A stretch of DNA of 34,586 nucleotides from Gelidibacter japonicus (GTDB lineage: Bacteria; Bacteroidota; Bacteroidia; Flavobacteriales; Flavobacteriaceae), in assembly GCF_010725055.1 (NCBI RefSeq), contig NZ_BJKB01000027.1, positions 1 to 34,586 of the forward strand. The letters are read 5' to 3'. Each line of letters begins with the position of its first letter. The first letter of the stretch is position 1. Shown here piece by piece: positions 10,053-30,646 of this stretch. Under the pieces are notes generated by a model. The model saw only the letters and a program-made list of their open reading frames with translations. It was not told the DNA's origin and did no database searches. The translations under genes and the position numbers were made by a program.

Positions 10053-10147
10053 AAATTTGCAAAGTTTAGTTAGACATAAGTTTAATTAACAGGATAGAGG
10101 GACGGAGCTGAGACATCGGGAAATGATTGGCTTCGTTCTCTCTTTTT
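10053..10147 (-). promoter_or_regulatory. Conserved fecR-susC spacer: hairpin plus mini-ORF leader (locus A)
   Basis: Between the fecR stop and the susC ATG lies a hairpin with arms 10096-10108 and 10130-10143 (core CGGAGC/GCTTCG with a G-U pair, outer AGAG/CTCT). Then comes ATG-TCT-AAC-TAA at 10077-10066, and 13 nt later the susC start. The same arrangement, with closely matching sequence, occurs in locus B. It may hold the sigma-dependent susC promoter, an RNA processing or stabilising hairpin, or a translated leader. The sequence does not decide among these. Confidence 0.5.
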
Positions 10148-11308: not shown

Positions 11309-11382
11309 TTTGTTCTTTAAGTAGGGTCATTTACAACAATGACGTAAAAAAAGACTCGAACACCTGCTTAGAAAAAAAAAAA

Positions 11383-11979
11383 TTATAGATGGATATAGTA
11401 TATGACGAAAATGATAAAAAAAATAGTGGAGATAGAACTCAATGATTTTCTCAAAACTTTAAGGGCTTTGGTAATATGACCTTCAACTGTACGTGTTGAA
11501 ATGTTTAATTTAACGGCAATTTCCTTATGGCTGAGCTGTTCATTCCTACTTAAGTTATAAACAACACGGCATTTTTCCGGTAATTCATTAATAACCGCTT
11601 CAAGATAATCCTGCAATTCCTTATCCATTAGCTTTGTCTCTGGATTGGAATTCTGCACACGTTCATTGAAATTTTCCAATAGATCAACCCTTATAGCAGA
11701 TTTGTTTTTTCGAAAATAGTCATATGTTTTATAAATAGTACTGGTATACAGATAACTCCGTAATGACACCTTAATTTCAAGGTCTCCCCTCTTTTTCCAT
11801 ATATTCACAAACACATCTTGAACAATATCCTCACTGACCTGTTTGTTTTTGACAAGATTATATGCCCCAAGGTACATTATTTCCCAGTATTCATTATAAA
11901 TAGAAGCTAAGGCTAATTCATCATTATTGTTAAGTCGCTGTATTAATTCTCTCTCTTTTAAACTAATTTCTGAGGACAT
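11383..11979 (-). CDS. ECF RNA polymerase sigma factor (locus A)
   Basis: 198 residues with sigma region 2 (VSEDIVQDVFVNIWKKRGDL..., Arg/Tyr-rich YLYTSTIYKTYDYFRK) and region 4 (INELPEKCRVVYNLSRNE then the helix-turn-helix HKEIAVKLNISTRTVEGH). No region 1 or 3 is present, as in ECF (FecI-like) factors. A hydrophobic C-terminal tail (ISTIFFIIFVIYYIHL) is unusual for a soluble factor and might keep it near the membrane-bound FecR. It starts the locus A operon and is expected to be held by the FecR encoded 74 nt downstream. A TAnnTTTG-type -7 box lies 20 nt upstream of its ATG. Confidence 0.93.
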   Translation of the reverse strand: MSSEISLKERELIQRLNNNDELALASIYNEYWEIMYLGAYNLVKNKQVSEDIVQDVFVNIWKKRGDLEIKVSLRSYLYTSTIYKTYDYFRKNKSAIRVDLLENFNERVQNSNPETKLMDKELQDYLEAVINELPEKCRVVYNLSRNEQLSHKEIAVKLNISTRTVEGHITKALKVLRKSLSSISTIFFIIFVIYYIHL

Positions 11980-12006: not shown

Positions 12007-12692
12007 TAAGAATTAACGAATTTGTTGTATTAAATTCGGAAAACCTCTTTCTCCGCAGAAAACTTTCTTTTATTGAAAAACTTAGTTTTCACAACAGCTG
12101 TAATTTGCATCTCTAACGCATTTTCATGATTGAGTCTGCGCAAAAGAATACAATCTTTATAAATTTAAACAAACTTAAAACATGGCCAATATTCTTGTCA
12201 CACAAGGCTCATGATGTTTATTCGATTTTGTCAAATATTCAGGACAACTCAATTCTTACACATCAAACAGGTAAGGAGTTTATCACAAGTCTCTTTCTTC
12301 TATTTAAGGAGCTCTAATAAAACAACAACTTACATTTCTTTTCTCTCATAGTTAAGGCAAACATAGAAAGAGCCAACTATTAATTATGAGAAGTCAGAAA
12401 CGACAGATTATGTATGTAGTCTACCTTGAGCTAAATTTTGATCTCTATGGAGAAATGGAATTTTAATTGCCTATTTATGTGGACACTATTCCAAAGCTGA
12501 CCATTCTAAATCTTGAGATAGAATATTAAAAAACATTCACGAATTCTTTACTCAGCAAATCCTAAACTTTGGAAAAGTATCGAGGCCGTTACAAATCGAG
12601 CATCTCACTCCAAATGAAGTCTTTCGCGAAATGATATGGCAATTTTGAGCTTAACATTTATTTTAAACCTTGTATGTATAGCAACAAAAAAT
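12007..12692. other. Long intergenic region between loci A and B
   Basis: About 690 nt without a convincing gene. The plus-strand frame 12126-12317 (63 codons) has no recognisable domain. A short frame at 12517-12648 (+), lacking a start codon and ending in LTPNEVFREMIWQF, reads like protein sequence but is too short to name and could be a gene remnant. No strong terminator hairpin follows locus B at 12600-12692. Confidence 0.4.
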
Positions 12693-14044
12693 CTATAGTG
12701 TGGTATCGAACTTTATATCATTTAATAAGTTCTTATATACTTTGCCGTCTTTCATTATCAAGAGTAAATTATCTTCTGGGTTATTAAGTAAATCAAAGTC
12801 TCTTAATGGATTACCTTTCACAATAATTAAATCGGCATAAGCACCTTCAGTTAGTTCCCCCAACTTTCCTTGTTGATAAGGATTACGTGGTCCACTCAAG
12901 CGCAGCATTTCGGCGTTTGTGGAAGTAACCATCTTAAGGGCTTCATAGGGTGAGAACCATTTTTTCAATCCGACCAATCGCGTTAAATCATTTCTACTAT
13001 CAATCTTCTGTTTTCCCGTAAGGTCAGTACCCATGCAGTTTTTACTTTATATTTTTTAGCTATTTTATAGACCTCATCGGTATGTCCATATACATAATCA
13101 CGTTTTTCCCTGCTTGGGGAATCTATGGGATAATCATTTTGTTCTTCAATCATGAAAGGTTGAATACTTAACCAAACTCCTTTTTCTGCCATTATTTTAG
13201 CGGTCTCTTCATCCAATAAGTGTCCGTGCTCTATAGTTCTAACGCCAGCTTCTATTGCTATTTGTATTGCCTGTGGTGTATAGGCATGAACACCTACGTA
13301 GGTTCCAAAATTTTCAGCAGCTAAAACTGCGGCCTCGAATTCCTTTAATGAGTATTGTGTCACATCAATGGGATCATAAGAAGAACCGATTCCACCACCT
13401 GCCATGAGTTTTATTTGGGTTGCCCCCTGTCTTAATTGTTCGCGTGTACGTTTTAATACTTCATCTGCCCCATCGGCAATTGCCGAAATACCTTGTCTTT
13501 CTGAATATGACAAATTATCTGAAGTTCGAGGCACCGCTGTTATATCGTCAAAATCACCATGTCCCCCAGACTGAGATATAAAAGCTCCACTGGGATAGAT
13601 CCTTGGGCCTGGAACTGTCCCTTTATCAATCTGTTTGGCTAATGGAATAGCATTTCCCCCCATATTTCTGAGAGTCGTAAACCCATGTAATAGACGATGT
13701 TTTGCAGCCTGAGTGGAAATAATATTGACTGTTCCCCAATCTACCATAGCAGAACCAATTGGTATTCCTTCCATACTAATATGAGTGTGAGCATCAATCA
13801 AACCAGGCATCACAAACTTCCCCTCTCCGTCGATAACCAAAACATTTTTAGAAGTGGAAGAAATATTACTTTTAGAAATTTTAGAAATCTTATTCCCTTC
13901 AATAAGAATATTTCCATTAATGGTTTTTTGATTAATGCCATCAAATATCTCCACATTCTTTATTAAAATGATTGGTAAATCCTTTTTCTGAGAAGTAACA
14001 CTGAAGGTTATGAGGAAAAAAATGAAATATAATCTATTTTTCAT
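12693..14044 (-). pseudogene. Exported amidohydrolase (imidazolonepropionase-like), 1-nt frameshift
   Basis: Two frames together make one metal-dependent amidohydrolase of about 450 residues. The N-terminal part (14044-12983) has a signal peptide ending near SVTSQ, the metal motif DAHTH (84-88), KLMAGGG, a VHAYT histidine and EHGH. The C-terminal part, in the other frame (up to 12693), begins GTDLTG and ends in the usual GKLGELTEGAYADLIIVKGNP block. They join at a GGG run (13030-13032 on the plus strand, CCC). Restoring one G gives TGG-GGT-ACT-GAC, hence WGTD, the conserved catalytic Asp of the family. The span is 1352 nt, exactly one short of a multiple of three. Relatives include peptidases acting on Xaa-Pro or acyl-amino-acid substrates. 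It is the last gene of locus B, 47 nt after the racemase homologue. It is either a recent pseudogene or a sequencing error. Confidence 0.85.
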
Positions 14045-14091
14045 GGTTGCAAATGATTTTATTTGTACTTAGAATGGCCTATAAAATTCGG

Positions 14092-15555
14092 TTAATCCTG
14101 AGATTTAAACTGTTTAATGAGCCGAAAAGTGAAAGGAAGTTGGTTTTCCAATCTTAAATAAATGTCTTGCGATATATTCTTATCACTAAAAGGCACAACT
14201 TTAATATATTCCTGTATTTCACCCTCAATTCTACCATATTTATAATCATAGGTAAAATCGCCAGTCTCGTCTATCTTGATTTTGGGATTGTTCTTGTTCG
14301 GAACGCTTATATAGAATTTGCTATTATAAATATCACCTTCCTGCCCGAAAAGATCTGACTCCTTGAGATGTTCAAAAAGTTCCTTGGCAGTATTCTGGGC
14401 AGGATCAACAAGAATAATATTTTCCATCATATATGGTTGATATCTAAAAGAACCATCCTGTTCCTTATAATTATACAGTTCATTCAAAACGGTCTTGATT
14501 TCATTTGAGAGATAAGGATAATGGGTACAGCCTAAAATTATAGACTTTAGAGGCGATGTCACCTTCGATTTACGAATATCTTCCAAAAGCGAAACCAGAT
14601 GATAACGTACATAATTCTCTGCATCATTAATTTGAAGAACCTGACATTCATCGGTATTCTGAGTATCGCAAAGCATTCGATTATTGCTGAAATCAAAGTT
14701 GTAAATCTCCATTAAGGTTTTATCTATTTTGGTATTACCATTAATACTCGGTCCTTTATAACTCTCTCTTGGAGCATTTAAGGTCGTATTAAAATAAGCT
14801 GTATCCTCATCAACGGCCTCTGCAATTCCCAATCCGCCCTGTTGAAAGACCTGAACATCACCTTCATAACCTAAGTTTTTAAGTTGTTTATTTAAGGTAT
14901 TCACATACCCTTTAGAGGTTACGGTTCCTACGGTCGCCATCACCGCGATGGTGGCATTTTCGTCTTTTTCCAAATGTTCCAATGCTCCCCGTACGCCAGC
15001 ATCGATGACTCCGATCACTTTAATGTTGAGACCTGCATTTTTTATAAAGGCTTCAATACTTTCCTTGCCATAAGCAGTTGCGGTATTGCATGCAATGACC
15101 AAGGCCTTAATATGCGATTTATCTTTATTAGGAGCAATCGCGTGATCTGATTTATAATATTTATTTCCAAGCATAAATTGAACATCCTTAATAATATGCT
15201 CTTTTAATAATTCATTTTTATTTTCAGCTGAATAATTTCCATAAGGCATATTTGCTTGGTCGGCCAAGTAAATGAACTCCTCTTTTTCAAAATCAATAAT
15301 GCCATCTTTTCCCGGTTGCATGGTTTCATTATTGTTCTTGTCGTAGTTCACAATAGCATCCAAAACAGTGAGGCCTCCAATTCCCGAATCAAAAATACCG
15401 ATAGGAAGTGAGCGGTCCGATTTGGGATAGTTTTTTACATCGAGGTAGTAAAAGCTATTTTTATTGTATAATATAGAATCTTGTAAAACTTGTTGTCCGT
15501 AGCTTCTGATACCAGATACCACTATAAGAGCAACTATTAATTTTCTAATTTTCAT
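14092..15555 (-). CDS. Exported glutamate/aspartate racemase homologue (MurI-like), enlarged
   Basis: 487 residues, against about 260-270 for cytoplasmic MurI. The N-terminus (MKIRKLIVALIVVSGIRSYGQQ) is a signal peptide, which suggests export to the periplasm. The racemase signatures are intact: GIFDSGIGGLTV with Asp56, the first catalytic cysteine in ACNTAT (Cys156) and the second in LGCTHYPYL (Cys343, His345). Extra sequence lies between the first strand and the YLADQANMPYG block (about 72-92), around 130-150, at about 255-312, and at the C-terminus (about 375-487). MurI interconverts L- and D-Glu for peptidoglycan synthesis in the cytoplasm. An exported, enlarged form inside a SusCD operon suggests a catabolic or recycling role on extracytoplasmic D-Glu or a Glu-containing peptide. 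It sits 42 nt after the D-aminoacylase gene. Confidence 0.82.
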   Translation of the reverse strand: MKIRKLIVALIVVSGIRSYGQQVLQDSILYNKNSFYYLDVKNYPKSDRSLPIGIFDSGIGGLTVLDAIVNYDKNNNETMQPGKDGIIDFEKEEFIYLADQANMPYGNYSAENKNELLKEHIIKDVQFMLGNKYYKSDHAIAPNKDKSHIKALVIACNTATAYGKESIEAFIKNAGLNIKVIGVIDAGVRGALEHLEKDENATIAVMATVGTVTSKGYVNTLNKQLKNLGYEGDVQVFQQGGLGIAEAVDEDTAYFNTTLNAPRESYKGPSINGNTKIDKTLMEIYNFDFSNNRMLCDTQNTDECQVLQINDAENYVRYHLVSLLEDIRKSKVTSPLKSIILGCTHYPYLSNEIKTVLNELYNYKEQDGSFRYQPYMMENIILVDPAQNTAKELFEHLKESDLFGQEGDIYNSKFYISVPNKNNPKIKIDETGDFTYDYKYGRIEGEIQEYIKVVPFSDKNISQDIYLRLENQLPFTFRLIKQFKSQD

Positions 15556-15597
15556 AATGATGTATTGTATTAAAGAGTCATTTTTTTATCCTAAAAC

Positions 15598-17178
15598 TTA
15601 TTTCTCTTGAGCTTTTAACAACAAGCGGCCGTTTCGATTATTGGTTAATTGACCATTATCAATAGTGACTACTCCATTGACGATTACATAGTTTATGCCC
15701 GCAGGATATTGATGGGGGTCCTCAAAAGTGGCCATATCTTTAACAGTTTTAGGATCAAACAGCACCAAATCCGCATAGTAATTAATCGCGATACTACCCC
15801 TGCGTTTTAGCCCTAAAAGATCAGCAGGCATAGAGGTCATTTTCTTGATGGCTTCTTCCAATTTTAATAAGCCTCGATCTCGTACATAAACGCCCAAAAC
15901 ACGTGGAAATGTTCCATACGATCTCGGATGTGGATGACTGACCCCGATTTGGGATAATTTCCCATCAGAAGCAATCATTGTTTTTGGATGAATCATTATA
16001 CGATCTACGTCTTTCTCATCCATAACATGATAAATCATTTGAGCGCCTCCATTGAGCTCTGCTTCAATTACCAGTTCTGCGGCATTTTCCGGTGTAGGTT
16101 CAAGACCTTCCATTTCAGTCCAGGTCAGCATGGTTTGACCCTCCAATTCTCTTTTCAACGGAAAATTTCGAAATTGTAACCGCTCAATTTCATGCCCCAC
16201 TCTAACGTGAATGATGTTGTAAATTATTCCTTGCTTAATACTATCCCTCAATTTGGGATTAGCAATTCGATCTTTAAAAGCTTCAGTTCCTCCGGCTTTT
16301 GCCCAAGAAGGAACTAGAGCTGCCAAAGAGGTAGAGCTTGCAGTATATGGATATTGATCGAGCCGCACATCGAGTCCGGTAGAATTTGCCGAATCAATCA
16401 TTTGAAGAGTTCTTTCACTCGCACCCCACATAGGAGCGCCCAACGCTTTATGATGCGTTAAAACAACTGTAATATCTGCTTGATCAGCAATCGTTATGAC
16501 CTCCTGTACAGCTTCAATAAGATGTAAACTTTCATCACGAATATGCGAGGTGTAAAAGCCTCGATGTGTAGATGCCACTTTGGCAAGTTCTATAATTTCA
16601 TCAGTCTTGGAAAAGGTTCCTGGTAGATAAGTAAGTCCAGTACTTAGCCCAAACGCTCCGTAATCCATGGCCTCATCAACCAAGGATTTCATTTGCTCTA
16701 GTTCCTCTGGGCTCGGTATTCTATTCTCCAATCCCATAACCTTCTTTCGGATAGTATTGTGTCCAATTTGGTAGCCGATATTAGGACCAAGTGAAAGTTG
16801 AGCAAGAGAATCCAAATAACTTATAAAATGGGTTGGTCCTCCTCCATCTGGGCCTCCAAGCAACAAAGTGACGCCCTGTCTTAAGGCACTTTCCGCAGTC
16901 GGCATCTGAGGCAAATCTGAAATATGGGCATGAAGATCTATAAAGCCGGGTGCAACCGCTAAACCTTTGGCATCAATAACTCTTTTTGCTTTCGCACCAT
17001 TCAAATCTCCTATAGCTTCAATTTTATCCCCAATAACCCCAACATCTGTTTTTATGGGGACACTTCCTGAGCCGTCATAGACCATTCCGTTCTTAATAAG
17101 AAGGTCATAATCTTGGGCACTTAGTTTGGAAACCAAGGATATTAATATTAAGAAAAAACATGTTTTAAATGAGATCAT
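15598..17178 (-). CDS. N-acyl-D-amino-acid deacylase (D-aminoacylase), exported
   Basis: 526 residues with a cleavable signal peptide ending at KLSAQ (about 17-21). It belongs to the amidohydrolase superfamily, D-aminoacylase branch. Seen are DLHAH with metal ligands His83 and His85, GLSTGLTYLPG (177-187), SHIRDES (211-217), THHKA (241-245), ASDG in the C-terminal half, and HPHPRSYGTFPRVLG, all in family order. These enzymes hydrolyse N-acyl-D-amino acids to free D-amino acids, and some act on N-terminal D-residue peptides. The canonical length is about 480-540. The gene is 5 nt after the serine hydrolase gene and before the racemase homologue, so a D-amino acid released here could be racemised. 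The substrate side chain is not predictable by eye. Confidence 0.9.
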   Translation of the reverse strand: MISFKTCFFLILISLVSKLSAQDYDLLIKNGMVYDGSGSVPIKTDVGVIGDKIEAIGDLNGAKAKRVIDAKGLAVAPGFIDLHAHISDLPQMPTAESALRQGVTLLLGGPDGGGPTHFISYLDSLAQLSLGPNIGYQIGHNTIRKKVMGLENRIPSPEELEQMKSLVDEAMDYGAFGLSTGLTYLPGTFSKTDEIIELAKVASTHRGFYTSHIRDESLHLIEAVQEVITIADQADITVVLTHHKALGAPMWGASERTLQMIDSANSTGLDVRLDQYPYTASSTSLAALVPSWAKAGGTEAFKDRIANPKLRDSIKQGIIYNIIHVRVGHEIERLQFRNFPLKRELEGQTMLTWTEMEGLEPTPENAAELVIEAELNGGAQMIYHVMDEKDVDRIMIHPKTMIASDGKLSQIGVSHPHPRSYGTFPRVLGVYVRDRGLLKLEEAIKKMTSMPADLLGLKRRGSIAINYYADLVLFDPKTVKDMATFEDPHQYPAGINYVIVNGVVTIDNGQLTNNRNGRLLLKAQEK

Positions 17179-17183
17179 AAGTA

Positions 17184-18542
17184 TTACTGATTATCAGATT
17201 TAACAAAATTAGTAATGATATCGACCAATGCTGCCTTATCCTCCAAACCAAGCTTTGTGTACTGTTTGGAAAGAGATTCTAAATCGGTAACATGCCATTG
17301 TGCGTCCAGGGATTTTTCATACCAGGACTTCATTTTTTCTTTATTCAAATGACAAATTTCCTTTTTCAAGATATCAATCCCTATTTGCTGAGGGAATTGT
17401 AATGGCTTGCCATTTAAATAATCATCAACAGCTTTTCTGATTTTTTTGATATACGGCGAATACGTATTATTTAAGATAACCACTAAACTTTTGTCATCCA
17501 AATACCTTTTAATATATGCCAAATTTCCAGCCCAACTCCCGGTGTGATACACCACTTTTCCAAGACTATCGTTTTCAACAATATGCCAGCCAAATCCATA
17601 ATCTGATGGGTCTTCTTTTGGTGGATAAGCTTGAAACGTCAACTCTTTCCCTTTATCGTGCAACAAACGATTTGTATATAAAATACTATCCCATTTGATA
17701 AGATCGTCCACACTGGATGACAATCGGCCCGATCCCAATCTTCCACTTAAAAAATGGTAATAGTATTTGCCTGCTTGATCCTCAGGTCTATCATATTGAC
17801 AGGTCTCAGGATTGATTAAATAACCAGGGGCATAATCGGTCAATTTCCAAATCTCATCACGATCATAAAAGGCGGTATTCTTCATCTCGGCCACATCAAA
17901 AACCTGATCCTTTAAGTACTCATCTAATGGTTTTCCACTAACGGCATGGACGATTTCTGCCAGTAATATATAACCAGAATTGGAATAATGGTATTTTGTA
18001 CCAGGTTGACTTATCAACTGCGGCTTATCAAGTTTAAAATATCTAACAATATCGCTATTTGTGGCAATTTTGGTGGTATCCCAAGTTTTTCGGAAATGGC
18101 TTTCGTAATCAGGAAGTCCCGAGGTATGTGTAAGAATATGTTTAATGGTAATGTTAGCGTATGGAAAATCGTCTCCGAGATATTTTTGAAGATGATCCTC
18201 TAAAGATAATTTTTTCTCCTGTTCCAGAAGAAGAATGGCGAAGGCAGTAAACTGTTTAGATACCGATGCAACCTCCATAGCGGTTTCAGCAAGGAAAGGC
18301 GTTTCCATTGAAAAATTTGCTGTTCCATAACCCTTTTTCAAGATTAACTTACCCTCCTTCTTTACCCCGACGGCACCATTGAACATACCTTTGTCATGTA
18401 ACGCTTTAAAAAAAGAGTCAAGAACAATATCAGTTTTGATCTCAACGGATTGTGGTATTTCTTTCTTTTTTGTGTCACCGCATCCGATAATAAATCCCAA
18501 AAACATCAATACTAAAGAAAATCTAACTATCGTGTTGTTCAT
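17184..18542 (-). CDS. Serine beta-lactamase-fold hydrolase lipoprotein (class C / DD-peptidase-like)
   Basis: 452 residues. Lipobox IIGC at Cys21 marks it as a lipoprotein. The beta-lactamase/transpeptidase-like domain shows the SxxK motif ASVSKQF (Ser93, Lys96), the YSN motif (Tyr186, Asn188) and a late HTGS motif. A C-terminal region of about 75 residues (after NDYLNGKP) follows. Family members include D-Ala-D-Ala carboxypeptidases, D-aminopeptidases and esterases, and the YSN/HTG pair is shared by all, so the exact reaction is open. Between a dipeptide epimerase (4-nt gap) and a D-aminoacylase (5-nt gap), a D-residue-specific peptidase is the simplest role. No sign of true beta-lactamase function is visible. 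Confidence 0.8.
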   Translation of the reverse strand: MNNTIVRFSLVLMFLGFIIGCGDTKKKEIPQSVEIKTDIVLDSFFKALHDKGMFNGAVGVKKEGKLILKKGYGTANFSMETPFLAETAMEVASVSKQFTAFAILLLEQEKKLSLEDHLQKYLGDDFPYANITIKHILTHTSGLPDYESHFRKTWDTTKIATNSDIVRYFKLDKPQLISQPGTKYHYSNSGYILLAEIVHAVSGKPLDEYLKDQVFDVAEMKNTAFYDRDEIWKLTDYAPGYLINPETCQYDRPEDQAGKYYYHFLSGRLGSGRLSSSVDDLIKWDSILYTNRLLHDKGKELTFQAYPPKEDPSDYGFGWHIVENDSLGKVVYHTGSWAGNLAYIKRYLDDKSLVVILNNTYSPYIKKIRKAVDDYLNGKPLQFPQQIGIDILKKEICHLNKEKMKSWYEKSLDAQWHVTDLESLSKQYTKLGLEDKAALVDIITNFVKSDNQ

Positions 18543-18546
18543 AATT

Positions 18547-19575
18547 TTAGATACTTGACCAGTTAGGCTTTATTAGACCTATTCCTGGTTCATTATTTAA
18601 TTGAATCGTTCCATTTTCAACTTTATGGGCCTGATACGGATCATTGGTCACTCCCAAATTACCGTCAAGATCAATCCATTCTGCTAAATCACCCAATTGG
18701 CATGCTGCCGCAATAGCACAAGAGGTTTCAGACATACAGCCTAACATCACCTTTAAACCAATAGTCTTAGCCATAACCGCCATATGATAGGCTTCCCTTA
18801 ATCCCGTTGCTTTCATCAATTTAATATTTACACCGTGATAATAGTTACTTGCGGATTTTAAGTCAGACAAGCGCTGGAGGCCTTCATCCCCAATAATTGG
18901 CAATGGGGAGTGGGCAGCGAGCCATTCCATGTCCTTATAAGCAGCCTTTGGCATAGGTTGTTCAATAAGCTGAACGTTCTCATTTTTCAACCACTGAATT
19001 TTATCTAAGGCAAGGTATTTATCCGTCCATCCTTGATTTGCATCAATAAACAAAGGCTTTTGGGTAGTGCTGCGGACGGTGGAAATAATATCTTCATCAT
19101 TGTCCGCACCCAATTTTATTTTTAAAATCTGAAAACTCTCGGCCTCTTTTACCCTTTTAAAAATAATATCTGGCGTATCGATTCCTATGGTTTTACTGGT
19201 CAAAAGATCTTTAGCTGGCAATCCAAAATAAGAATGAATAGGCAATTGGATCATTTTTCCAATCAAATCATGCAAAGCAATATCAATTGCAGCTTTAATG
19301 GCCGTGTTACCAGGGGCTATCCCATCGATAGTCTGCAAGATGTGTTCTAAGTCAAACGGATCCTTGAATTGCGACATATCAATACGCGTTATAAATTTAG
19401 TCGCGCTTATCACACTTTCTCCATAAACGGGAGGCATTGACGCTTCGCCATATCCGCTATAGGCATCGAAATCTATTTTTATAAGAACAACCGGGGTCGA
19501 GCTTCTAACGCCCCCGGCAATTCTAAACCTATGTTTTTTTATTAAGATGTAAGGTTTAAAGCTTAAGGTAAACAT
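18547..19575 (-). CDS. Dipeptide epimerase (enolase superfamily, L-Ala-D/L-Glu epimerase-like)
   Basis: 342 residues, the full length for the family. Catalytic residues of the muconate-lactonizing-enzyme subgroup are present: KIK (Lys152, Lys154), metal ligands Asp178 (IDAN), Glu205 (IEQP) and Asp230 (GDE), and the opposite base Lys252 (NIKLMK). The DxD motif IDLDG (Asp302, Asp304), which in dipeptide epimerases binds the substrate ammonium group, is intact and separates it from muconate enzymes. It epimerises the C-terminal residue of dipeptides such as L-Ala-D-Glu. It has no signal peptide, so it is cytoplasmic, unlike the exported enzymes beside it. Its ATG overlaps the susD stop (TAATG), which indicates translational coupling. 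Specificity (Ala-Glu, Ala-Ala or other) cannot be read by eye. Confidence 0.9.
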   Translation of the reverse strand: MFTLSFKPYILIKKHRFRIAGGVRSSTPVVLIKIDFDAYSGYGEASMPPVYGESVISATKFITRIDMSQFKDPFDLEHILQTIDGIAPGNTAIKAAIDIALHDLIGKMIQLPIHSYFGLPAKDLLTSKTIGIDTPDIIFKRVKEAESFQILKIKLGADNDEDIISTVRSTTQKPLFIDANQGWTDKYLALDKIQWLKNENVQLIEQPMPKAAYKDMEWLAAHSPLPIIGDEGLQRLSDLKSASNYYHGVNIKLMKATGLREAYHMAVMAKTIGLKVMLGCMSETSCAIAAACQLGDLAEWIDLDGNLGVTNDPYQAHKVENGTIQLNNEPGIGLIKPNWSSI

Positions 19576-20987
19576 TAATATCCTGGGTTCTGTTTCATGT
19601 CAGGATTTGCATTTAATTCGCTCAAAGGAATAGGTAAAATAAATTTATCATTTGGATAGCTCTCTTCAGTTTTGTTGTCACTCTGAATCATCGTGACATT
19701 GCGCTTATTTCTGTTAAGGTCAAAAAGTCTATGTCCTTCAAAGGCAAGTTCCTTTCTTCTTTCCAATAATATCAAATCCATTAAATCCTCTCCCGTTTCG
19801 GTGACTGGTACAGCAGTAGGTTTTGCTCTTTTCATGACGGTGAGTAAATCCTCTTGAGCCAATGTAGGCTGTTCAGTTTTAGCATATGCTTCTGCACGGA
19901 TAAGGTATTGCTCAGCCAAACGAAAAATCCTGAGGTTATCATCATGTTCAGTTCCCTTTGGAAATTTACCCACAAAATTGGCATCTTGCTCCGCACCAGG
20001 TTTGGCTCCTTGGATAATCGCATTTAACCTGATGTCATCTGGATCGTAGGTATTAATTATATCCAGAGGCACCAAAGCATCAGCATAACCTTTGACGTGG
20101 AAAAAATGTCCCAATCCATTGGTACCCGAATTATCTGAAACCGTATTTACAATTTCAAAAATCGATTCCGAATTAAAGTCGTTTGCCCATAAGTCGGCAT
20201 ATTGATCGTGATCAATGAGTTGAAATGTTCCACTGTTAATGACTTGGGTACTATATGTTATTGCCGCATCATAATCCTCTTGATACAAAGCAACTCTTGC
20301 AGCCAAGGCTTTTGCTCCGCCCACCGAAAATTTACCATTCTTTTTAGACGCTGACATTTTATTTATAGCCGTCTCTATGTCACTATTAATTTGCTTATAA
20401 ACATTTTTTACATTATCTCTTGGAGGAGAAATTCGTTCGTTATAAACCTGGTTAATTATTGGAATGCCTAAATGGCTTGCATCAGAGGTGAAATTATAAG
20501 GTTGTGCAAATAGCCTCACCAAGTCAAAATGTGCAAGCGCTCTTAAGGCATAGGCTTCACCTACCAATTGATCAAATAACGCTTGTTGCTCGGTTGAACC
20601 CGATTTCAATTTCTCTCCTCCTTCAATTACACGTGATGCGTTTGCCAATACAGAATACAATTTGATCCACAAGCCTTCGACATACGAATCTCGTTCACTT
20701 ACGACAAAGTTGTCAAAGTCAAGATATCGACCCGTATTTCGCGAGCTCAAAAATAAGTTATCCGCCATTAACTCGGGAATTACATAAATACTCCGTCCAT
20801 AATAATTGCTACTTTGCAATTCGCTATAGACACCATTTAATGCTGTTTTTAGTGTGTTCTCGTCAATTACCGCATTCTCTGCCGGTACATTCTGTTCCGG
20901 ATCTATTTCTAAAAAGTTATCACTACAAGAAAATATTGTAATACTCATTAGGATGCTTAGTGCTATATATTTTAGTTTCTTATACAT
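19575..20987 (-). CDS. SusD/RagB-family binding lipoprotein (locus B)
   Basis: 470 residues with a lipobox at Cys21 (IFSCSDN). SusD hallmarks are NFLEIDPEQ after the anchor, the VGEAYALRALAHFDLVRLFAQPY helix block, the LAARVALYQEDYDAAITYS TPR-like repeat, and the C-terminal LILLERRKELAFEGHRLFDLNRN block with FILPIPLSELNANPDMKQNPGY. It starts 10 nt after the susC stop, and its own stop overlaps the epimerase start, so receptor, binding protein and epimerase are tightly linked. It is the surface binding partner of the locus B receptor; the substrate is inferred from cargo to be a D-residue-containing peptide. Confidence 0.93.
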   Translation of the reverse strand: MYKKLKYIALSILMSITIFSCSDNFLEIDPEQNVPAENAVIDENTLKTALNGVYSELQSSNYYGRSIYVIPELMADNLFLSSRNTGRYLDFDNFVVSERDSYVEGLWIKLYSVLANASRVIEGGEKLKSGSTEQQALFDQLVGEAYALRALAHFDLVRLFAQPYNFTSDASHLGIPIINQVYNERISPPRDNVKNVYKQINSDIETAINKMSASKKNGKFSVGGAKALAARVALYQEDYDAAITYSTQVINSGTFQLIDHDQYADLWANDFNSESIFEIVNTVSDNSGTNGLGHFFHVKGYADALVPLDIINTYDPDDIRLNAIIQGAKPGAEQDANFVGKFPKGTEHDDNLRIFRLAEQYLIRAEAYAKTEQPTLAQEDLLTVMKRAKPTAVPVTETGEDLMDLILLERRKELAFEGHRLFDLNRNKRNVTMIQSDNKTEESYPNDKFILPIPLSELNANPDMKQNPGY

Positions 20988-20997
20988 ACTTTTAATT

Positions 20998-23900
20998 TTA
21001 TAATGAAATATTCAACCCTATTAAAAACTGGCTCGATACAGGAATCCTTAAATCGGATTGGCCTCCAATGCCGACCTCTGGATCAACTTCAATGTTTTTG
21101 TCTTTTACCCAAGTCAACAAATTACTGGCTTTTAAATAGATTTTAAATTCGTTAACAGCCATCTTTTTAGTTATGGCATCAGACAGTGAATACCCTAAAC
21201 TGACATCTCTTAAACGCAAATAGGTACCGTCATATAAAAATCGCGTAGAATGCTGACTTGAAAGCCCTGATTGTTTGTTTCCATAAACCACTTTTGGAAC
21301 ATTGGTCACATCACCTGGTTTTTGCCAGCGATTATTATAAATGTTTCTGGTCATATTCCCTCGATCATTTAAACGTGCACTACCATCACTGCTGGTATAT
21401 CGGCCCCAAGGATCATATACTTTATTGCCATAATTTAGATATAATAAGAAGGAAAAACTTAAATTCTTATAGGTAAACGTATTGGTAAGTCCTGCAAAGA
21501 AATCCGGTAAGGCGCTCCCCTGATTATAAGGCTGCGCCTCACTGTATTGATTTGTTGTCTGAGATTCCGAACTGTCAACATACCAAAGAGCGTCGCCATT
21601 GTCAGGATCTGCACCAGCAAAGCCTGGCATATAGAAAGTATAAAAATCACCACCTATCTCTCGGATATAATTATCGTCAACTATCGCTTGTCCATCTTTT
21701 AACTTGGTAATTTCATTGGAATTGGAAGTAAAATTAAAATTCGTCAACCAACTGAACCCATCCTGATTATCAAAATTGATTGTATTTAAGGCCAGTTCGA
21801 TTCCTGAATTTGTCATCTCACCGATATTATCAAAATAGGTCGTGAGACCGTTTGTAGCTGAAATTGGAACTCTAAATAACAAATCGGTAGTGGTACGGTG
21901 ATAATACTCAACGGTTCCACTAATTCTATTAATAAGATTAAAGTCGATTCCTACGTTAAACGGTTTGTTTTTTTCCCAAGTAAGATTTTTATTAATCTGC
22001 TGGCTATAAATATAGCCTGGCTCACCATCATAATCAGCACCTGTTGAATAAAGTCCTCGGGAAGCAAAATCCCCAATTTCTTGATTCCCGTTAATTCCAT
22101 AACTCGTTCTCAATTTTAAATTCGTTATGACATTAGAATCTTCCAAAAACTTCTCTTTAGTAATATTCCATGCTAATCCCACCGATCCAAAATTGGCATA
22201 CCGAACGTCAGATCCAAATCGGGAAGATCCATCTCTCCGCGCCGTCGCATTAAAATAATATTTATTCATTAAGGCGTAGCTGACATTAAAGAAGTAGGAG
22301 GAAATGGAAGAAGCTGTTTTTGTACTGGATGCCTCTCTGTATACAGAGGCATTGCTTAATGTGGTCAATCCAGGCGCACCATAATTACTGGCAAAGGCAA
22401 ACAGTGAACTTTCATTGATTTTCTGAGCTTCCTGCCCTAATAGAAAATTAAAATTATGATCGTTGTTAAGCCTTAAGTTATATTTCAAAAGGTTGGTAAT
22501 ATTATAATTCAGTATTTTGTTGTCAAATGCCCTACCGCGACCACCATCGTTTCTACCTTCTCCAAAATCAGGATTGTCAAATCGAAATTCATCCGCAAGA
22601 TTAAAATCAAAATTGCCTTTTGTCTCAAAACTCAAGTTTTTAGTCAAATCATACTTTAAACTTAAATTGGCCAATACGCCATATAATTTTGTTTCTCTTA
22701 TATTCTTCTCAACCAATCCCACAGGATTATAGGTTAATAATATATCTGTATTATAAGAACCATCTTCATTATAGACTGGTTCCCACGGAACAGTCCTTAA
22801 CATAGCTCTAACCGGGTTGGCTGCATTACCTGCATCACTATTAGAGTGAAGAATTTGATGACTTAACCCAACGCCGAAATCGATATTAAACTTATCGGTA
22901 GCTTGATGGTTAATATTGACCCGCGAATTGAACTTTTTATAGTCAATACCAATGACCACAGCTTCCTGGTCATAGTATCCCACGGAGGCATAAAATTTGG
23001 TGTTTTCGTTTCCTCCATTTGCACTCAAATTATATTGTTGGTACAAGCCTTGTCGGGTAATTACATCTACCCAATCCGTATCAACATTAGGATCTACATT
23101 ATTTAAGATAAAATCAGTAGCATCTGCCATTGATTCACCGGTATTTACCCTACTTTCAATCAACAATTCAATATGTTGCTTAGAATTTAACGGGCGCATT
23201 CTATCTGGCAAAATCACATTACTGATTCCACTTTGAACGTTCACGTCAAATCGGGTTTTGCCTTCTTTACCTTTTTTGGTGGTGATCAATATAACTCCGT
23301 TACCACCTCGCGATCCATATATAGCAGTTGCCGATGCATCCTTTAAAACCGTAATATTAGCAATATCATTGGGGTTAAGACCTGCAATAGTATTGGAGTT
23401 AGTACCAATATTGGCAATATTCCCCGAAACCACTGGAATTCCATCAATAACATATAAGGGATCAGAACTTGCGTTGATGGAGCCAATCCCTCTGATTCTG
23501 ATATCGGGCGCAGAGCCTGGTTGTCCACTTTTAGTTGACATTTGCAATCCAGCCACATTTCCTTGTAAGCTTTCCTGAAAAGATGCCAAAGGTGTTTCTT
23601 CTACCGCCTTAAGATCAACCTCAACAGCTGCACCAGTATAAGATGACTTGCTTTGCCTATCATAAGCTACGATGATGACTTCATCAAGATCCGCAGCACT
23701 TTCGTTCAATACAATAGTAATTTGTGACATTCCTTTTACGCTCATCTCTTTAGTGACATAGCCCAAATAGGATATGACCAATATCGCATTATCATCTGTC
23801 AAGCTTATTGAGAAATTCCCATCAAAATCAGTTTGTGTTCCATTTGTTGTTCCCTTTTCAATAATATTGGCTCCTATCATCGGTTCCCCTTGATGATCGG

Positions 23901-24324
23901 TTACAGTGCCGGACACCTTGTAGTTCTGAGTCGCCATTGGCCCAGGCAATATCATTTTGGGAATTTCAGTTATCACAATGGTGTTGTTTTGTGATACTTC
24001 AAACTTGACATCACTATGGGCAAAACTTTGTTTTAATAACCGAGAGATCGGAATAATCCCTTTTTTTAATTGCACTTTTGGTGCGTAGGTAAATAAATCT
24101 TGTGGGTAGAGGAAGCGATACTTGGTTTGATTCTGAATGATATTAAAAACCTCGTCCACAGAAACCTCCTTGTCCATGTCTATAGTTACCTGTTCTTGAG
24201 AAAACGAATCTGTTGTTGTGAAGCTAAATACCGTTGTACATAATAAGAGGATGAATGTTCTCATAATTAGAAATAGCAGCCGCTTTGGTACGTTAAAACC
24301 CAGCTTGGTTAATTTAATTTTCAT
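20998..24324 (-). CDS. SusC/RagA-type TonB-dependent receptor with STN signalling domain (locus B)
   Basis: 1108 residues. The signal peptide ends near FSQEQV (about 43). An STN domain (about 48-105, DEVFNIIQNQTKYRFLYPQD), a carboxypeptidase-regulatory-like domain (about 130-210, VSGTVTDHQGEPMIGANII), a plug (about 215-350, IRGIGSINASSDPLYVIDG and YGSRGGNGVILITTKKG), and a barrel ending FLIGLNISL follow. The first 45 residues closely parallel the locus A receptor (MKIKLT start, internal Met21, LLCTTVFSFT), and the upstream leader is conserved too, so the two are paralogues. Energised by TonB, it would import the SusD-delivered substrate to the periplasm and signal to FecR through STN. Confidence 0.95.
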   Translation of the reverse strand: MKIKLTKLGFNVPKRLLFLIMRTFILLLCTTVFSFTTTDSFSQEQVTIDMDKEVSVDEVFNIIQNQTKYRFLYPQDLFTYAPKVQLKKGIIPISRLLKQSFAHSDVKFEVSQNNTIVITEIPKMILPGPMATQNYKVSGTVTDHQGEPMIGANIIEKGTTNGTQTDFDGNFSISLTDDNAILVISYLGYVTKEMSVKGMSQITIVLNESAADLDEVIIVAYDRQSKSSYTGAAVEVDLKAVEETPLASFQESLQGNVAGLQMSTKSGQPGSAPDIRIRGIGSINASSDPLYVIDGIPVVSGNIANIGTNSNTIAGLNPNDIANITVLKDASATAIYGSRGGNGVILITTKKGKEGKTRFDVNVQSGISNVILPDRMRPLNSKQHIELLIESRVNTGESMADATDFILNNVDPNVDTDWVDVITRQGLYQQYNLSANGGNENTKFYASVGYYDQEAVVIGIDYKKFNSRVNINHQATDKFNIDFGVGLSHQILHSNSDAGNAANPVRAMLRTVPWEPVYNEDGSYNTDILLTYNPVGLVEKNIRETKLYGVLANLSLKYDLTKNLSFETKGNFDFNLADEFRFDNPDFGEGRNDGGRGRAFDNKILNYNITNLLKYNLRLNNDHNFNFLLGQEAQKINESSLFAFASNYGAPGLTTLSNASVYREASSTKTASSISSYFFNVSYALMNKYYFNATARRDGSSRFGSDVRYANFGSVGLAWNITKEKFLEDSNVITNLKLRTSYGINGNQEIGDFASRGLYSTGADYDGEPGYIYSQQINKNLTWEKNKPFNVGIDFNLINRISGTVEYYHRTTTDLLFRVPISATNGLTTYFDNIGEMTNSGIELALNTINFDNQDGFSWLTNFNFTSNSNEITKLKDGQAIVDDNYIREIGGDFYTFYMPGFAGADPDNGDALWYVDSSESQTTNQYSEAQPYNQGSALPDFFAGLTNTFTYKNLSFSFLLYLNYGNKVYDPWGRYTSSDGSARLNDRGNMTRNIYNNRWQKPGDVTNVPKVVYGNKQSGLSSQHSTRFLYDGTYLRLRDVSLGYSLSDAITKKMAVNEFKIYLKASNLLTWVKDKNIEVDPEVGIGGQSDLRIPVSSQFLIGLNISL

Positions 24325-24432
24325 AAATTTGCTTTGTATTAGTTAGACATTAGTTTGATTACTACACTATAGAGGGACGAAGCCGAGTCACCGCAAAATG
24401 TTTCGCTTCGCTCTCTCTTTTTATTATTTATT
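24325..24432 (-). promoter_or_regulatory. Conserved fecR-susC spacer: hairpin plus mini-ORF leader (locus B)
   Basis: The hairpin arms are 24371-24383 and 24405-24418 (core CGAAGC/GCTTCG, outer AGAG/CTCT with a small bulge). ATG-TCT-AAC-TAA lies at 24350-24339, then 14 nt to the susC ATG. The run GCAAATTTATGAAAATTAAA at the start is shared with locus A. In both loci the stem core differs by G/A opposite T, so pairing is kept through G-U. The role is unproven: promoter, RNA-processing hairpin or leader peptide. Confidence 0.5.
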
Positions 24433-25557
24433 TTATTTTAAAATCACTGTTTTATTATTGATTTCATAATTTTCGATAATTCCAAAGTTTTTGATAGCTT
24501 CTATAATTTCTTCTATATTCTGATCTCTTCCCAAAACTCCATTGAAGCCCGCATTTTCAAGCTTCTTATTTTCAAAAATCACCTCAATATCATACCAACG
24601 TGATAACACTTTCATAATCTCTCCCAATGGTTTTCTACGGAAACTAAAAATACCATCCTTCCATGATATTTCATTGTAAACGTTCACCTCCATAACCGAC
24701 ATATTGCCATTTGAAATATTGAGAACCATTTGTTGGCTCGGCGCTAATTTTTCTTCAACAGCCCCAGCAATAAACAAAACTTCACCCTCAACTAAAGTGG
24801 TATAGATATGTTCCTCATCCTTATAGGCTTTAACATTAAACTCCGTCCCCAACACCTCTATAATCTGAGATTTATTGTTGACTCTGAATCCACTTCCGGC
24901 ATGTTCAATACTTGAAGAAACATCAAAATAAGCCTCTCCATATACAAGTTCAACTTGTCGGGTTTCTCCTTCCACAAAACTTACAGGATATTTTAGTTGT
25001 GAATCGGAATTCAACCATACTTGTGTACCATCGGACAAAACAACATTATACTGTCCACCTATTGGAACAGTTATATAATTATAAGTGAGACTTTTGCGTG
25101 TGTTTGTGGTTTTATTGTAGATTATTTCTTCACCATTACTACTTGCATTCTGTGTTTCATATTTTTTCCCCTTTTCCAATACCACCACGGAGCCATCTTC
25201 TAATGTCAAAGTAGCCTTGTCGGTACCAACTGAAATGTCACTATGTACAACGGTTGGTTCAGAGTTCTGAAGCGAATCTCTATTAAACATAATGGTAAGT
25301 GCGACCAAAAGCGCAATGGATGCAGCAACGCCAAATTTCCAATAAGCTTGGGATTTCTTTCTTTTAGATATTTTCTGAGATAACTTTTGCCATGCTTTTT
25401 CAACATCAATGTTATCTAGCTCTTGGGAATAATTATCTTTAAGACGATTAAAATAGGATCTATGAACAGCGGATTCGTGATACCATTGATTAAAGATTAT
25501 AGCTTCTTTTTTAGTAAGCTTACCGTTGAGTTTTTTAATTAAAATTTTAAAGTCCAT
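24433..25557 (-). CDS. FecR-family anti-sigma factor / signal transducer (locus B)
   Basis: 374 residues. The N-terminal cytoplasmic part carries a helical FecR_N-like region (about 5-45, FNQWYHESAVHRSYFNRLK). The membrane span is about 74-91 (KFGVAASIALLVALTIMF). The periplasmic FecR domain (YITVPIGGQYNVVLSDGTQVWLNSDS; VELVYGEAYFDV) and C-terminal STN-contact domain (EISWKDGIFSFRRKPLGEIMKVLSRWYDIEV) follow. It resembles the locus A FecR throughout the periplasmic half but differs in the N-terminal part, as expected if each binds its own sigma factor. It lies between the sigma gene (112-nt gap) and susC (108-nt gap). Confidence 0.93.
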   Translation of the reverse strand: MDFKILIKKLNGKLTKKEAIIFNQWYHESAVHRSYFNRLKDNYSQELDNIDVEKAWQKLSQKISKRKKSQAYWKFGVAASIALLVALTIMFNRDSLQNSEPTVVHSDISVGTDKATLTLEDGSVVVLEKGKKYETQNASSNGEEIIYNKTTNTRKSLTYNYITVPIGGQYNVVLSDGTQVWLNSDSQLKYPVSFVEGETRQVELVYGEAYFDVSSSIEHAGSGFRVNNKSQIIEVLGTEFNVKAYKDEEHIYTTLVEGEVLFIAGAVEEKLAPSQQMVLNISNGNMSVMEVNVYNEISWKDGIFSFRRKPLGEIMKVLSRWYDIEVIFENKKLENAGFNGVLGRDQNIEEIIEAIKNFGIIENYEINNKTVILK

Positions 25558-25669
25558 AATGATCCTTTTGCCAGGTCTTTATTAAATAGACAACGGAACA
25601 TTAAGAATGGGTGACAAATTTTTAGAAAAAAGAAAAGATTTCATGAAAATCCTCAGCTAAGTGTGAGAA

Positions 25670-26227
25670 TTATTGATACAATTCTAATAGAATAAGGATG
25701 CAAGTTAATGAGTCAGTAATTTTTATCTTTGCTCTTTTTAACTGTGTCTTTACGGTATTCACAGAAATGTCAAGTTCTGCAGCAATGTCCTTGTATTTAT
25801 AATCATGTAGAAATTTAAGTCTTACAATTTGTTGCATTTTATCAGGAAGTGAATCTACAATTTTAAGAATTTGATGATAAACAATTTCCTTGTCGTCTTC
25901 TGAAGCCGAATCAAAAACATGTTCAGTGATTAGACTAATATTGAATTCTAAAATCTCAAAGTTGCCAGTTATCTTTAAGGATTTTAAGAAATTTAGACAA
26001 CGATTTCTAACCATTCGATAAACATAAGCCTGTAACGACGAGGTGATGTTAATCTTATCCGGTTTTTCCCAAATATAAATAAAGACTTCTTGAACGACAT
26101 CCTCGCTTGATTGTTTATCAAATAGATATCCATTGGCGTAAATAACCAAATCCTCATAATTCTTGTTGAAAAAGTTTTTGAAAACCTGTCGGTTTCCTTT
26201 TTTTATTTCATCAATGATTAGATTCAT
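25670..26227 (-). CDS. ECF RNA polymerase sigma factor (locus B)
   Basis: 185 residues. Region 2 reads QSSEDVVQEVFIYIWEKPDKI with YVYRMVRNRCLNFLKS. Region 4 reads VDSLPDKMQQIVRLKFLHDYKYKDIAAELDISVNTVKTQLKRAK, with a clear helix-turn-helix. It is the first gene of the locus B operon, with the partner FecR next, and is expected to drive susC and the D-peptide cargo when the receptor is loaded. A TAGATTTG -7-like box is 26 nt upstream of its ATG. A second, broken ECF sigma gene diverges from it 109 nt away. Confidence 0.93.
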   Translation of the reverse strand: MNLIIDEIKKGNRQVFKNFFNKNYEDLVIYANGYLFDKQSSEDVVQEVFIYIWEKPDKINITSSLQAYVYRMVRNRCLNFLKSLKITGNFEILEFNISLITEHVFDSASEDDKEIVYHQILKIVDSLPDKMQQIVRLKFLHDYKYKDIAAELDISVNTVKTQLKRAKIKITDSLTCILILLELYQ

Positions 26228-26336: not shown

Positions 26337-27005
26337 TTGGGTATTGAACCCAAATTATTCAAAATACCTACATCAAATAGAGAAGCAAAGGTGGGCAATG
26401 AACACTTGATCTCCACATTAATGGAAGGCAATAGGAATGCCTATAATTTTCTAGTGGAAAATTACCATGATAGGATTTTCAACTACGCATTATCGTTAAC
26501 TAATAACTATGCTCTAACCCAAGATTTGATTCAGAATGTTTTTTTAAAAACCTGGGAACACCTAAACAAGTTAAATCCAATCTACCCCATTAAAAGTTTT
26601 CTTTACAAAGCGGCTTACAATGAGTTTGTAAATCTGTATCATAAAAACTTAGCCATTTCTAAAGTTGAATCCAAATTCATTGAAGCTATTGATAGTATGA
26701 CTTCAGAAGAAAATGAAGAGATTATGGAAAAGAAAAAAGCTATTGTCTTTTAAGAAATACATAAACTTCAACCAAAGTGTAGAGAGGTGTTTTTGATAAG
26801 CAAAACAGAAGGACTTACAAATCCTGAAATCGCCACTCATATGGGTATTTCTATAAAAGCTGTAGAAGCTCAAATCACTATGGCTTATTCCACCCTCAGA
26901 AAAAATTGTATTGCAAAGCATCATACTATTGTTTTTTTTAGTATTCGGATATCAGTTAAGGTCAAAGGGCTAATATTTAGCCAAGAACTCAGTCCTCTTC
27001 TTTAG
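26337..27005 (+). pseudogene. ECF sigma factor interrupted by an in-frame TAA
   Basis: One reading frame holds region 2 (LVENYHDRIFNYALSLTNNYALTQDLIQNVFLKTW) and then, after an ochre codon at 26751-26753, KLQPKCREVFLISKTEGLTNPEIATHMGISIKAVEAQ, the usual region 4 with helix-turn-helix. No shift of frame is needed: both halves are in phase and only the TAA separates them. The nominal first codon at 26337 is TTG; a GTG at 26391 or the ATG at 26424 are alternatives closer to the domain start. The two halves would be non-functional as separate peptides. It diverges from the locus B sigma gene and has no FecR neighbour. The tail after TLRKN is degenerate, which adds to the picture of decay. Confidence 0.8.
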
Positions 27006-29022: not shown

Positions 29023-29032
29023 TTATTATTTT

Positions 29033-29399: not shown

Positions 29400-29410
29400 T
29401 TAATAATGTA

Positions 29411-29450
29411 AGTTGCAAATTGTTTTGTGGCTCATAGATGATTTGCAACC
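29411..29450. repeat. Copy of the fic operator-like repeat, 3' of fic
   Basis: CAAATTGTTTTGTG and its flanks match the element upstream of fic (30606-30646) with a few differences, in direct orientation. The fic gene is therefore bracketed by imperfect direct repeats of about 40 bp. Confidence 0.55.
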
Positions 29451-29457
29451 TCATTTG

Positions 29458-30549: not shown

Positions 30550-30605
30550 TTTTGTGACTTATGTATGAGCAACAATAATCTTTGCGACCCAAATATAGTG
30601 AAATA

Positions 30606-30646
30606 TGATTCACAAATTGTTTTGTGATTCACAAATGAGTTACAAA
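30606..30646 (-). promoter_or_regulatory. Putative operator of fic: three tandem repeats
   Basis: TGATTCACAAA occurs at 30606-30616 and again at 30625-30635 (19-bp spacing). A variant TGAGTTACAAA follows at 30636-30646. CACAAATTGTTTTGTG within it is also an imperfect palindrome. The position upstream of the fic ATG and the wHTH domain of Fic suggest autoregulation, which is an inference. Confidence 0.45.

Follow-up and report, generated by a model that had tools for sequence, protein, structure and literature searches.

Closest described systems

Loci built around a SusC transporter and a SusD lid protein (SusCD) are almost automatically interpreted as glycan systems. Oligopeptide, not glycan, ligands are however described for the SusCD pairs RagAB and B. 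theta Bt2261-64 in the part of PMC7782687 at hand, and a role in murein-peptide use has been proposed for the dipeptide epimerase family (PMC5808125 and PMC3605383, both in excerpt). Here a nine-gene SusCD operon of Gelidibacter japonicus is analyzed, running from position 26227 down to 12693 on the minus strand of a stretch of 34,586 nucleotides (assembly GCF_010725055.1, contig NZ_BJKB01000027.1, referred to as C27, positions 1 to 34,586), the whole of which is called the window; the genome comprises 4.67 Mb. The sequence suggests a nutrient locus controlled by a sigma factor and FecR that would import small peptides with D-residues, above all D-glutamate, most probably stem fragments of foreign peptidoglycan, and this reading is given a probability of roughly 0.57. 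If true, a SusCD lineage with a D-stereochemistry cargo would add peptidoglycan (or other D-residue) peptides to the known imports and give a genetic handle on consumers of D-amino acids, a pool commonly regarded as resistant to degradation. A glutamate racemase outside the cytoplasm would also be an unusual place for such chemistry.

With a canonical polysaccharide utilization locus the operon shares sigma/FecR genes, SusC, SusD and exported enzymes grouped together, but no carbohydrate-active enzyme family was found among the Pfam matches and the listed NCBIfam matches (the best 25 for four of the genes) of the nine genes. These matches included no glycosidase, sulfatase or polysaccharide-lyase family and no inner-membrane-transporter family, in agreement with an earlier note made on this DNA from the sequence alone. 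The epimerase family is common to the window operon, the YkfB/YcjG L-Ala-D/L-Glu epimerase operons and the NlpC/P60–epimerase clusters of relatives. Compared with a YkfABC-type muropeptide operon, the window operon lacks the NlpC/P60 gamma-D-glutamyl endopeptidase and has SusCD, a D-aminoacylase homologue and an exported racemase in addition, and compared with the NlpC/P60–epimerase clusters its epimerase lacks the twin-arginine motif present in 12 of 20 sampled relatives. For RagAB and Bt2261-64, D-residue enzymes are not mentioned in the available part of PMC7782687, and the window SusD matches RagB weakly (32 bits).

Two further pathways show partial likeness. The DgcA N-acetyl-D-glutamate racemase pathway, leading from D-Glu to N-acetyl-L-Glu, is named in the excerpt of PMC11747546. 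DgcA is the best NCBIfam model of the window epimerase, reached with 203 of the required 400 bits, while the protein is closer to the solved protein 3iji (49% identity) and no D-Glu N-acetyltransferase occurs among the listed operon matches; a DgcA identity was set aside because the score is half of the cut-off. The Ong cluster for oxidised chitin likewise has a deacetylase of the D-aminoacylase family in an uptake cluster (PMC9537276, in part), but the Pfam matches of the window operon include no hexosaminidase, sugar kinase, D-amino acid deaminase or RidA family, and chitin oxidation of the Ong type was set aside since the partner genes were not seen. Among open-licence papers, which make weak evidence of absence, none was found that pairs SusCD with these enzymes or that reports a glutamate racemase as periplasmic, secreted, extracellular or a lipoprotein; neither is an exported racemase described in the part of PMC11044484 at hand.

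Organization and gene content of the operon

The operon is real as a gene unit. Its nine genes, all on the minus strand, encode in order an extracytoplasmic function (ECF) sigma factor, FecR, SusC, SusD, a dipeptide epimerase, a serine hydrolase lipoprotein, a D-aminoacylase homologue, a glutamate racemase (MurI) homologue and an amidohydrolase. The gap is 10 nt between susC and susD, 4 nt between the epimerase and serine hydrolase genes and 5 nt between those of the serine hydrolase and the D-aminoacylase, and susD overlaps the epimerase gene by 1 nt; both the coordinates and this spacing, given as 4–10 nt or an overlap from susC through the D-aminoacylase, agree with the earlier note. The genes of the MurI homologue and the amidohydrolase follow at 42 and 47 nt and are thus less tightly coupled to the rest.

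The sigma factor (25670..26227) is of the Bacteroidetes Sig70_bacteroi1 type (TIGR02985, 133.3 bits against a cut-off of 126.4; Pfam sigma-70 regions 2 and 4), and the FecR-type anti-sigma factor (24433..25557) matches PF04773 and PF16344 above cut-off. Both genes lie directly upstream of the adjacent susC and susD. The SusC TonB-dependent outer-membrane transporter (20998..24324, 1108 aa; TIGR04056, 820.5 bits) has an N-terminal extension of 136 aa ahead of CarbopepD_reg, with a sub-threshold FecR_C match and no clear match to a signalling domain. The SusD lipoprotein lid (19575..20987) is identified by PF07980 and PF14322.

The dipeptide epimerase (18547..19575), of the enolase superfamily, has 3iji, 3ijl and 3ijq as closest solved relatives (366 bits), 3iji being presumably BT_1313 of B. 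thetaiotaomicron. In an alignment with 26 relatives, 3iji and 1jpd it keeps the motifs KxK, D/E/D, KxxxxG and DLDG, which we take to be catalytic or metal-binding, and the conserved Arg at residue 24, shared with 1jpd of E. coli and presumably binding the Glu side chain. The equivalog cut-offs for L-Ala-D/L-Glu epimerases were missed (NF011708, 142.7 of 343 bits; NF041118, 129.3 of 500 bits). Signal-like stretches were judged by eye throughout, for the racemase homologue additionally by a hydropathy script. None was seen in the epimerase, and since the start codon of its open frame of only 350 codons overlaps the stop of susD, no upstream signal fits.

The serine hydrolase (17184..18542; PF00144, 177.8 bits) is a lipoprotein of the S12/beta-lactamase fold and a predicted D-specific peptidase, in which S-x-x-K, Y-x-N and H-x-G are present by eye. 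Its best NCBIfam model is D-aminopeptidase (88.7 bits, cut-off 443), and its best solved relatives are the penicillin-binding-protein-related 2qmi, an alkaline D-peptidase, a penicillin-binding protein and a D-Ala-D-Ala carboxypeptidase, others being a D-amino acid amidase, a D-aminopeptidase and ClbP. Several of these (alkaline D-peptidase, D-amino acid amidase, D-aminopeptidase, ClbP) would also suit general scavenging or detoxification of D-peptides or non-ribosomal peptides, in which a D-stereospecific peptidase would open (lipo)peptides with D-residues and the D-aminoacylase would cleave off their fatty-acyl cap, and a distant SusCD locus (L139) with an M81/MlrC-type peptidase and a PF00144 hydrolase points the same way. 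Such a function was nevertheless considered unlikely, as it leaves unexplained the glutamate themes, namely the MurI fold family, the match of the epimerase to the L-Ala-D/L-Glu type and the glutamate symporters near the racemases of relatives, and as SusCD argues for nutrition.

The D-aminoacylase, or N-acyl-D-amino-acid deacylase, homologue (15598..17178) starts with a signal-like stretch and thus looks exported. It matches the solved D-aminoacylase 1rjp, which we take to be that of A. faecalis, with 298 bits, N-acyl-D-glutamate deacylase with 239 and PpOngB with 215, and stays under the curated cut-off of NF006560 (PRK09061; 233.6 of 340 bits). The motifs GFIDLHAH, SHIRDE, LTHHK and SDG, with HxH, two further His and an Asp, are kept; these residues are presumably the metal ligands and the catalytic Asp. 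The NCG motif of A. faecalis, whose Cys we assume to be the bridging one, is not kept, the window protein having PDG and all but one of the aligned Bacteroidota relatives NDG or PDG.

The operon could also serve ordinary catabolism of dipeptides or amino-sugar acids with D-residues incidental, the D-aminoacylase being OngB-like and the epimerase acting on other dipeptides. OngB deacetylates GlcNAc1A (PMC9537276, in part), PpOngB is among the solved relatives, and enzymes of the AEE family vary in dipeptide specificity (PMC5808125, in part). Against this, quite improbable, alternative, the operon Pfam matches include no hexosaminidase, sugar kinase or deaminase family for a pathway of the Ong type, at three loci elsewhere window-type D-aminoacylases have a D-amino-acid-transaminase homologue or an Asp/Glu-racemase-family gene in their vicinity, and the neighbouring racemase would be unexplained. 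The transaminase homologue, present at one locus in each of two other genomes, is adjacent in L083 and two genes off in L082 (234 and 251 of 277 bits, respectively). On C9 of the window's own genome (L079, L080), the Asp/Glu-racemase-family gene shares a cluster with a D-aminoacylase of the window clade, a further D-aminoacylase, two serine hydrolases, another SusCD, an S58 peptidase and an SDF symporter. The window-clade enzyme of L081 is followed by a second D-aminoacylase and an M20 homologue, while L084–L087 have no recognised partner of this kind except a gene resembling gamma-glutamyltransferase (GGT) in L087. The cluster on C9 is a second D-amino-acid cluster of this genome; a MocR-like gene in it was named by eye.

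The MurI homologue (14092..15555) is an exported-looking protein of 487 aa with inserts, scoring 97.3 bits with TIGR00067 against a cut-off of 146.65. Its motifs FDSG, ACNT and GCTHYP, including the two-cysteine motifs, are kept in all 19 exported homologues, the window copy included; the count leaves out a twentieth locus, L024, where only a racemase remnant with stops is present. The same 19 have an N-terminal hydrophobic signal-like stretch, unlike the cytoplasmic MurI of wall synthesis, and an early Cys as in lipoproteins was seen by eye in the other exported racemases and not in the window copy. Structure models from two sequences reached a mean predicted local distance difference test (pLDDT) score of 34.3. 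The genome has another MurI of the usual length on C17, which passes TIGR00067 with 217.7 bits, so the exported copy is extra, and a second exported racemase on C14 next to a GGT gene (L022; TIGR00066, 585 bits).

The last gene is frameshifted in the assembly, being either broken or mis-assembled. The N-terminal part with the start codon (12983..14044; PF01979) encodes a prolidase-like amidohydrolase matching the Xaa-Pro dipeptidase model NF051886 with 176.3 bits (cut-off 500) over profile positions 12–265 of 398, and three-frame translation, with no base restored, places the continuation in another frame at 12693..13045, the upper limit being approximate.

Conservation of the gene cluster in Bacteroidota

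Conservation was studied in 299 genomes of the family and 395 of the phylum. The sequence comparisons show the operon as two modules joined together, its last gene broken, and not as one conserved five-gene unit. Module A, from the sigma factor, FecR, SusC and SusD to the epimerase and the serine hydrolase, recurs at L055–L058 (four further genomes, three genera), where identities to the window are 63–66% for SusC, 62–64% for SusD, 63–69% for the epimerase and 53–58% for the serine hydrolase. The recurrence of this order in four genomes, with 53–69% identity from SusC on, is more than chance; the sigma/FecR proteins of these loci are only 31–36% identical to one or the other of the two sigma/FecR pairs of the window. 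In the family sample a SusD of at least 62% identity was found in exactly these four other genomes, and in all four its gene directly adjoins the epimerase gene. Of the family genomes, 127 had an epimerase match with an E of 1e-20 or lower, but only five including that of the window had one of at least 56% identity (six copies), the next match being at 35%. The lowest of the close copies (56%), in L059, belongs to another SusCD locus, which has two serine hydrolases.

Outside the window, module B, the D-aminoacylase with the exported racemase, is accompanied by different SusCD pairs, by M14 carboxypeptidases and by glutamate symporters. A close epimerase and an exported racemase were found together, among all the genomes of both samples, only in that of the window. 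This, along with the broken last gene, would suit enzymes accreted as chance passengers downstream of an unrelated SusCD without a common pathway; but the close packing from susC to the D-aminoacylase (-1 to 10 nt), the separate conservation of the two modules, both D-residue themed, and an independent counterpart in another family make this very improbable. Judged from its genes, that counterpart, L113, comes closest to the window operon: sigma factor, FecR, SusC, SusD, a DUF4843-like protein, an epimerase (58%), a serine hydrolase, a D-aminoacylase, a flavin adenine dinucleotide (FAD) oxidoreductase (279 of 383 bits with the D-amino acid dehydrogenase model) and a membrane protein of an antiporter family. 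The earlier note had proposed an operon for D-residue peptides and had suggested looking for its five-gene cargo beside SusCD elsewhere. Its theme holds in so far as relatives of the epimerase, D-aminoacylase and racemase lie partly beside D-amino-acid or peptidoglycan genes and L113 offers a parallel, whereas the cargo splits into the two modules and its fifth gene is broken.

In the phylum sample the epimerase (E 1e-80) was matched in 69 of the 395 genomes and the exported racemase (E 1e-40) in eight. The epimerase was present in six of the seven other racemase genomes against 62 of the 387 without racemase (Fisher p 1e-4), although the six belong mostly to one family and are hence not independent; in none of them is it close to the racemase, lying on other contigs or 2 Mb away.

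The wider epimerase loci, of which 20 were fetched from the 75 places listed outside the window, point to murein peptides. An NlpC/P60 gene with SH3 adjoins the epimerase in eight (three of the proteins assigned by Pfam, the rest by similarity); two of these eight also have AmpG and N-acetylglucosamine (NAG) kinase and one an S66 carboxypeptidase homologue, and one further locus has NAG kinase and NagZ homologues, so that AmpG, NAG kinase, NagZ or S66 genes occur in 4 of the 20. The twin-arginine motif, RRxF near the N terminus, suggests that many of the wider relatives are exported by the twin-arginine translocation (Tat) route, while the window clade does not look so. The motif-bearing epimerases are those of L114–L122 and L125–L127 (counted from an inner start for L122 and L126), and NlpC/P60 genes frequently adjoin them.

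For the transport step, the relatives of module A provide a candidate. After the serine hydrolase, all four (L055–L058) encode a DUF819 protein, assigned by Pfam in L055 and 75–82% identical to that protein in the others, and in L058 the two form a natural fusion in one frame of 865 aa (12197-14794; serine hydrolase 14–441, DUF819 449–865). DUF819 is placed in the CPA/AT clan together with a glutamate symporter family and has an N-out topology (PMC8396727, in part), which would fit an attached periplasmic hydrolase. The window operon has no DUF819 gene, but the genome carries one copy on C25, PTR2-family matches on C1 and three SDF symporter matches. The DUF819 membrane protein is thus, on this gene association, a candidate for the transporter missing from the operon, and the suggestion of the earlier note that a transporter encoded elsewhere must feed the epimerase fits these findings.

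Gene neighbourhood of the exported racemase

In the family sample the exported racemase was matched at E 1e-20 in 11 genomes, one of these matches being a remnant with stops. A single-sequence scan of a collection of genome contigs gave one relative, L001, and a query made from an alignment would probably reach further. Altogether 20 racemase loci were read (the window, L001, L014–L024 and L070–L076), two of them from the window's genome. They were compared with 20 control stretches at arbitrary positions of 14 studied genomes, three of which had no exported racemase match; several racemase genomes, that of the window included, contributed no control stretch.

A D-aminoacylase was present at 12 of the racemase loci and in none of the controls (Fisher p 2e-5), being directly adjacent to the racemase in 11, with the window and the L024 remnant counted. 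SusD was found at 10 loci against one control, M14 at eight against none and the SDF symporter at five against none. GGT occurred at three against one, AmpG at four against none and NagZ at three against none. AmpG, NagZ or NAG-kinase neighbours occurred at four loci, and the loci with AmpG or NagZ were without D-aminoacylase. Only the counts for window proteins (D-aminoacylase, SusC and in part SusD) are near unbiased, because the anchors were mostly chosen after the loci had been seen. At L014, L016, L018, L019 and L020 a conserved protein of about 440 aa also adjoins the exported racemase; in L014, the only one tested, it has an fn3 domain.

The neighbours of the racemase raise the question of whether the locus, or at least its D-aminoacylase–racemase half, serves gamma-glutamyl polymers such as poly-gamma-glutamate. 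Gamma-linked D/L-glutamate would then be clipped outside, N-capped D-Glu deacylated, and free D-Glu racemised in the periplasm and imported. M14 (8/20), GGT (3/20) and the glutamate symporters (5/20) fit this substrate, as does the GGT gene beside the second exported racemase of the genome. GGT was also found, however, in a control stretch, neither M14 nor GGT was matched among the window genes tested, and AmpG/NagZ at four other racemase loci together with NlpC/P60 beside the epimerase point to peptidoglycan instead. A polymer of this kind is therefore regarded as a rather unlikely substrate.

Proposed function

The stem-peptide substrate, in turn, fits the epimerase family and its NlpC, AmpG and NagZ neighbours. 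All enzyme activities, the ligand and the regulation of the operon are predictions, and with these the following route may be sketched. SusCD, by family knowledge, would bring the peptide into the periplasm, where the serine hydrolase lipoprotein may trim D-residues and the exported D-aminoacylase may deacylate N-acyl-D-amino acids, for example N-acyl-D-glutamate. The exported MurI homologue would convert periplasmic D-glutamate to L-glutamate, to be imported by a glutamate symporter encoded elsewhere. Dipeptides of the L-Ala-D-Glu type would reach the cytoplasm, probably via the DUF819 or a PTR2 carrier, and the cytoplasmic epimerase, to judge from its best-matching relatives, would turn them into L,L-dipeptides for ordinary dipeptidases. 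Recycling of the cell's own wall was set aside as less probable, since SusCD argues for import from outside.

Several observations weigh against import of D-glutamate-containing stem fragments. The operon itself has no NlpC/P60, M14 or GGT enzyme among its Pfam and NCBIfam matches that would release D-glutamate or L-Ala-D-Glu; four NlpC/P60 matches lie elsewhere in the genome. For all four of the epimerase, serine hydrolase, D-aminoacylase and racemase the best NCBIfam match is under its curated cut-off, which makes them homologues and not certified members. For OngB, a relative of the D-aminoacylase, the available part of PMC9537276 reports sugar-acid deacetylase activity, whereas N-acetyl-D-glutamate is attacked little or not at all. 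The D-aminoacylases beside racemases in relatives form a clade distinct from that of the window, and modules A and B each occur without the other. No recognised partner was seen at 8 of the 20 wider epimerase loci and a distant match only at two more, among the 20 racemase loci L072 and L076 lack any themed neighbour and L073 shows a transaminase-like match only, and the anchors of the neighbour counts, apart from the window proteins, had been taken from the very loci being compared. Finally, the distant SusDs (34–43% identity) have mixed cargo or none.

These next-ranked SusDs were represented by 17 fetched loci, and two more of the same rank belong to L080 (on C9 of the window's genome) and L083 (on C51 of genome G297), both of them D-aminoacylase clusters. 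An M19 dipeptidase is encoded at L133 together with two amidohydrolases, with L134, L136 and L138 similar (by Pfam for L133 and one RidA-family protein of L136); L139 has M81, M19 and PF00144 proteins, with L140 similar. The cargo of L135, L137 and L141 is ambiguous. Eight of the 17 loci (L142–L149) have no such cargo, and the D-residue theme thus does not cover the whole SusD family. At L139 the M81/MlrC-type metallopeptidase gene (14903-16441) lies near SusCD and adjoins the PF00144 hydrolase gene; we take the type to be that of microcystin breakdown.

A wider proposition is put forward tentatively and with some doubt. In Bacteroidota of several families, exported and for the most part lipoprotein-like MurI homologues, D-aminoacylases, gamma-glutamyl-cleaving enzymes and SusCD might together turn D-Glu from foreign peptidoglycan or gamma-glutamyl polymers into L-Glu in the periplasm, with symporters finishing the import, and Tat-exported epimerases might act likewise on L-Ala-D-Glu.

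Neighbouring genes

A second, separate sigma–FecR–SusC–SusD locus lies at 1551-11979 on the minus strand. It also encodes an AhpC/TSA-thioredoxin protein and two proteins that look exported and have no Pfam match above cut-off. Divergent from the operon, a frame of 138 aa at 26337-26753 on the plus strand has sigma-70 region 2 only and is probably a truncated or split sigma gene. Type I restriction-modification genes occupy 27499-34526 on the minus strand, encoding HsdM, HsdS and a protein with a C-terminal EcoEI R domain; between them lie genes for a Fic protein and a PIN_10 and DUF433 pair. At the edge of the window, 379-1167 on the plus strand encodes an IstB-like ATPase of an IS21-type element.

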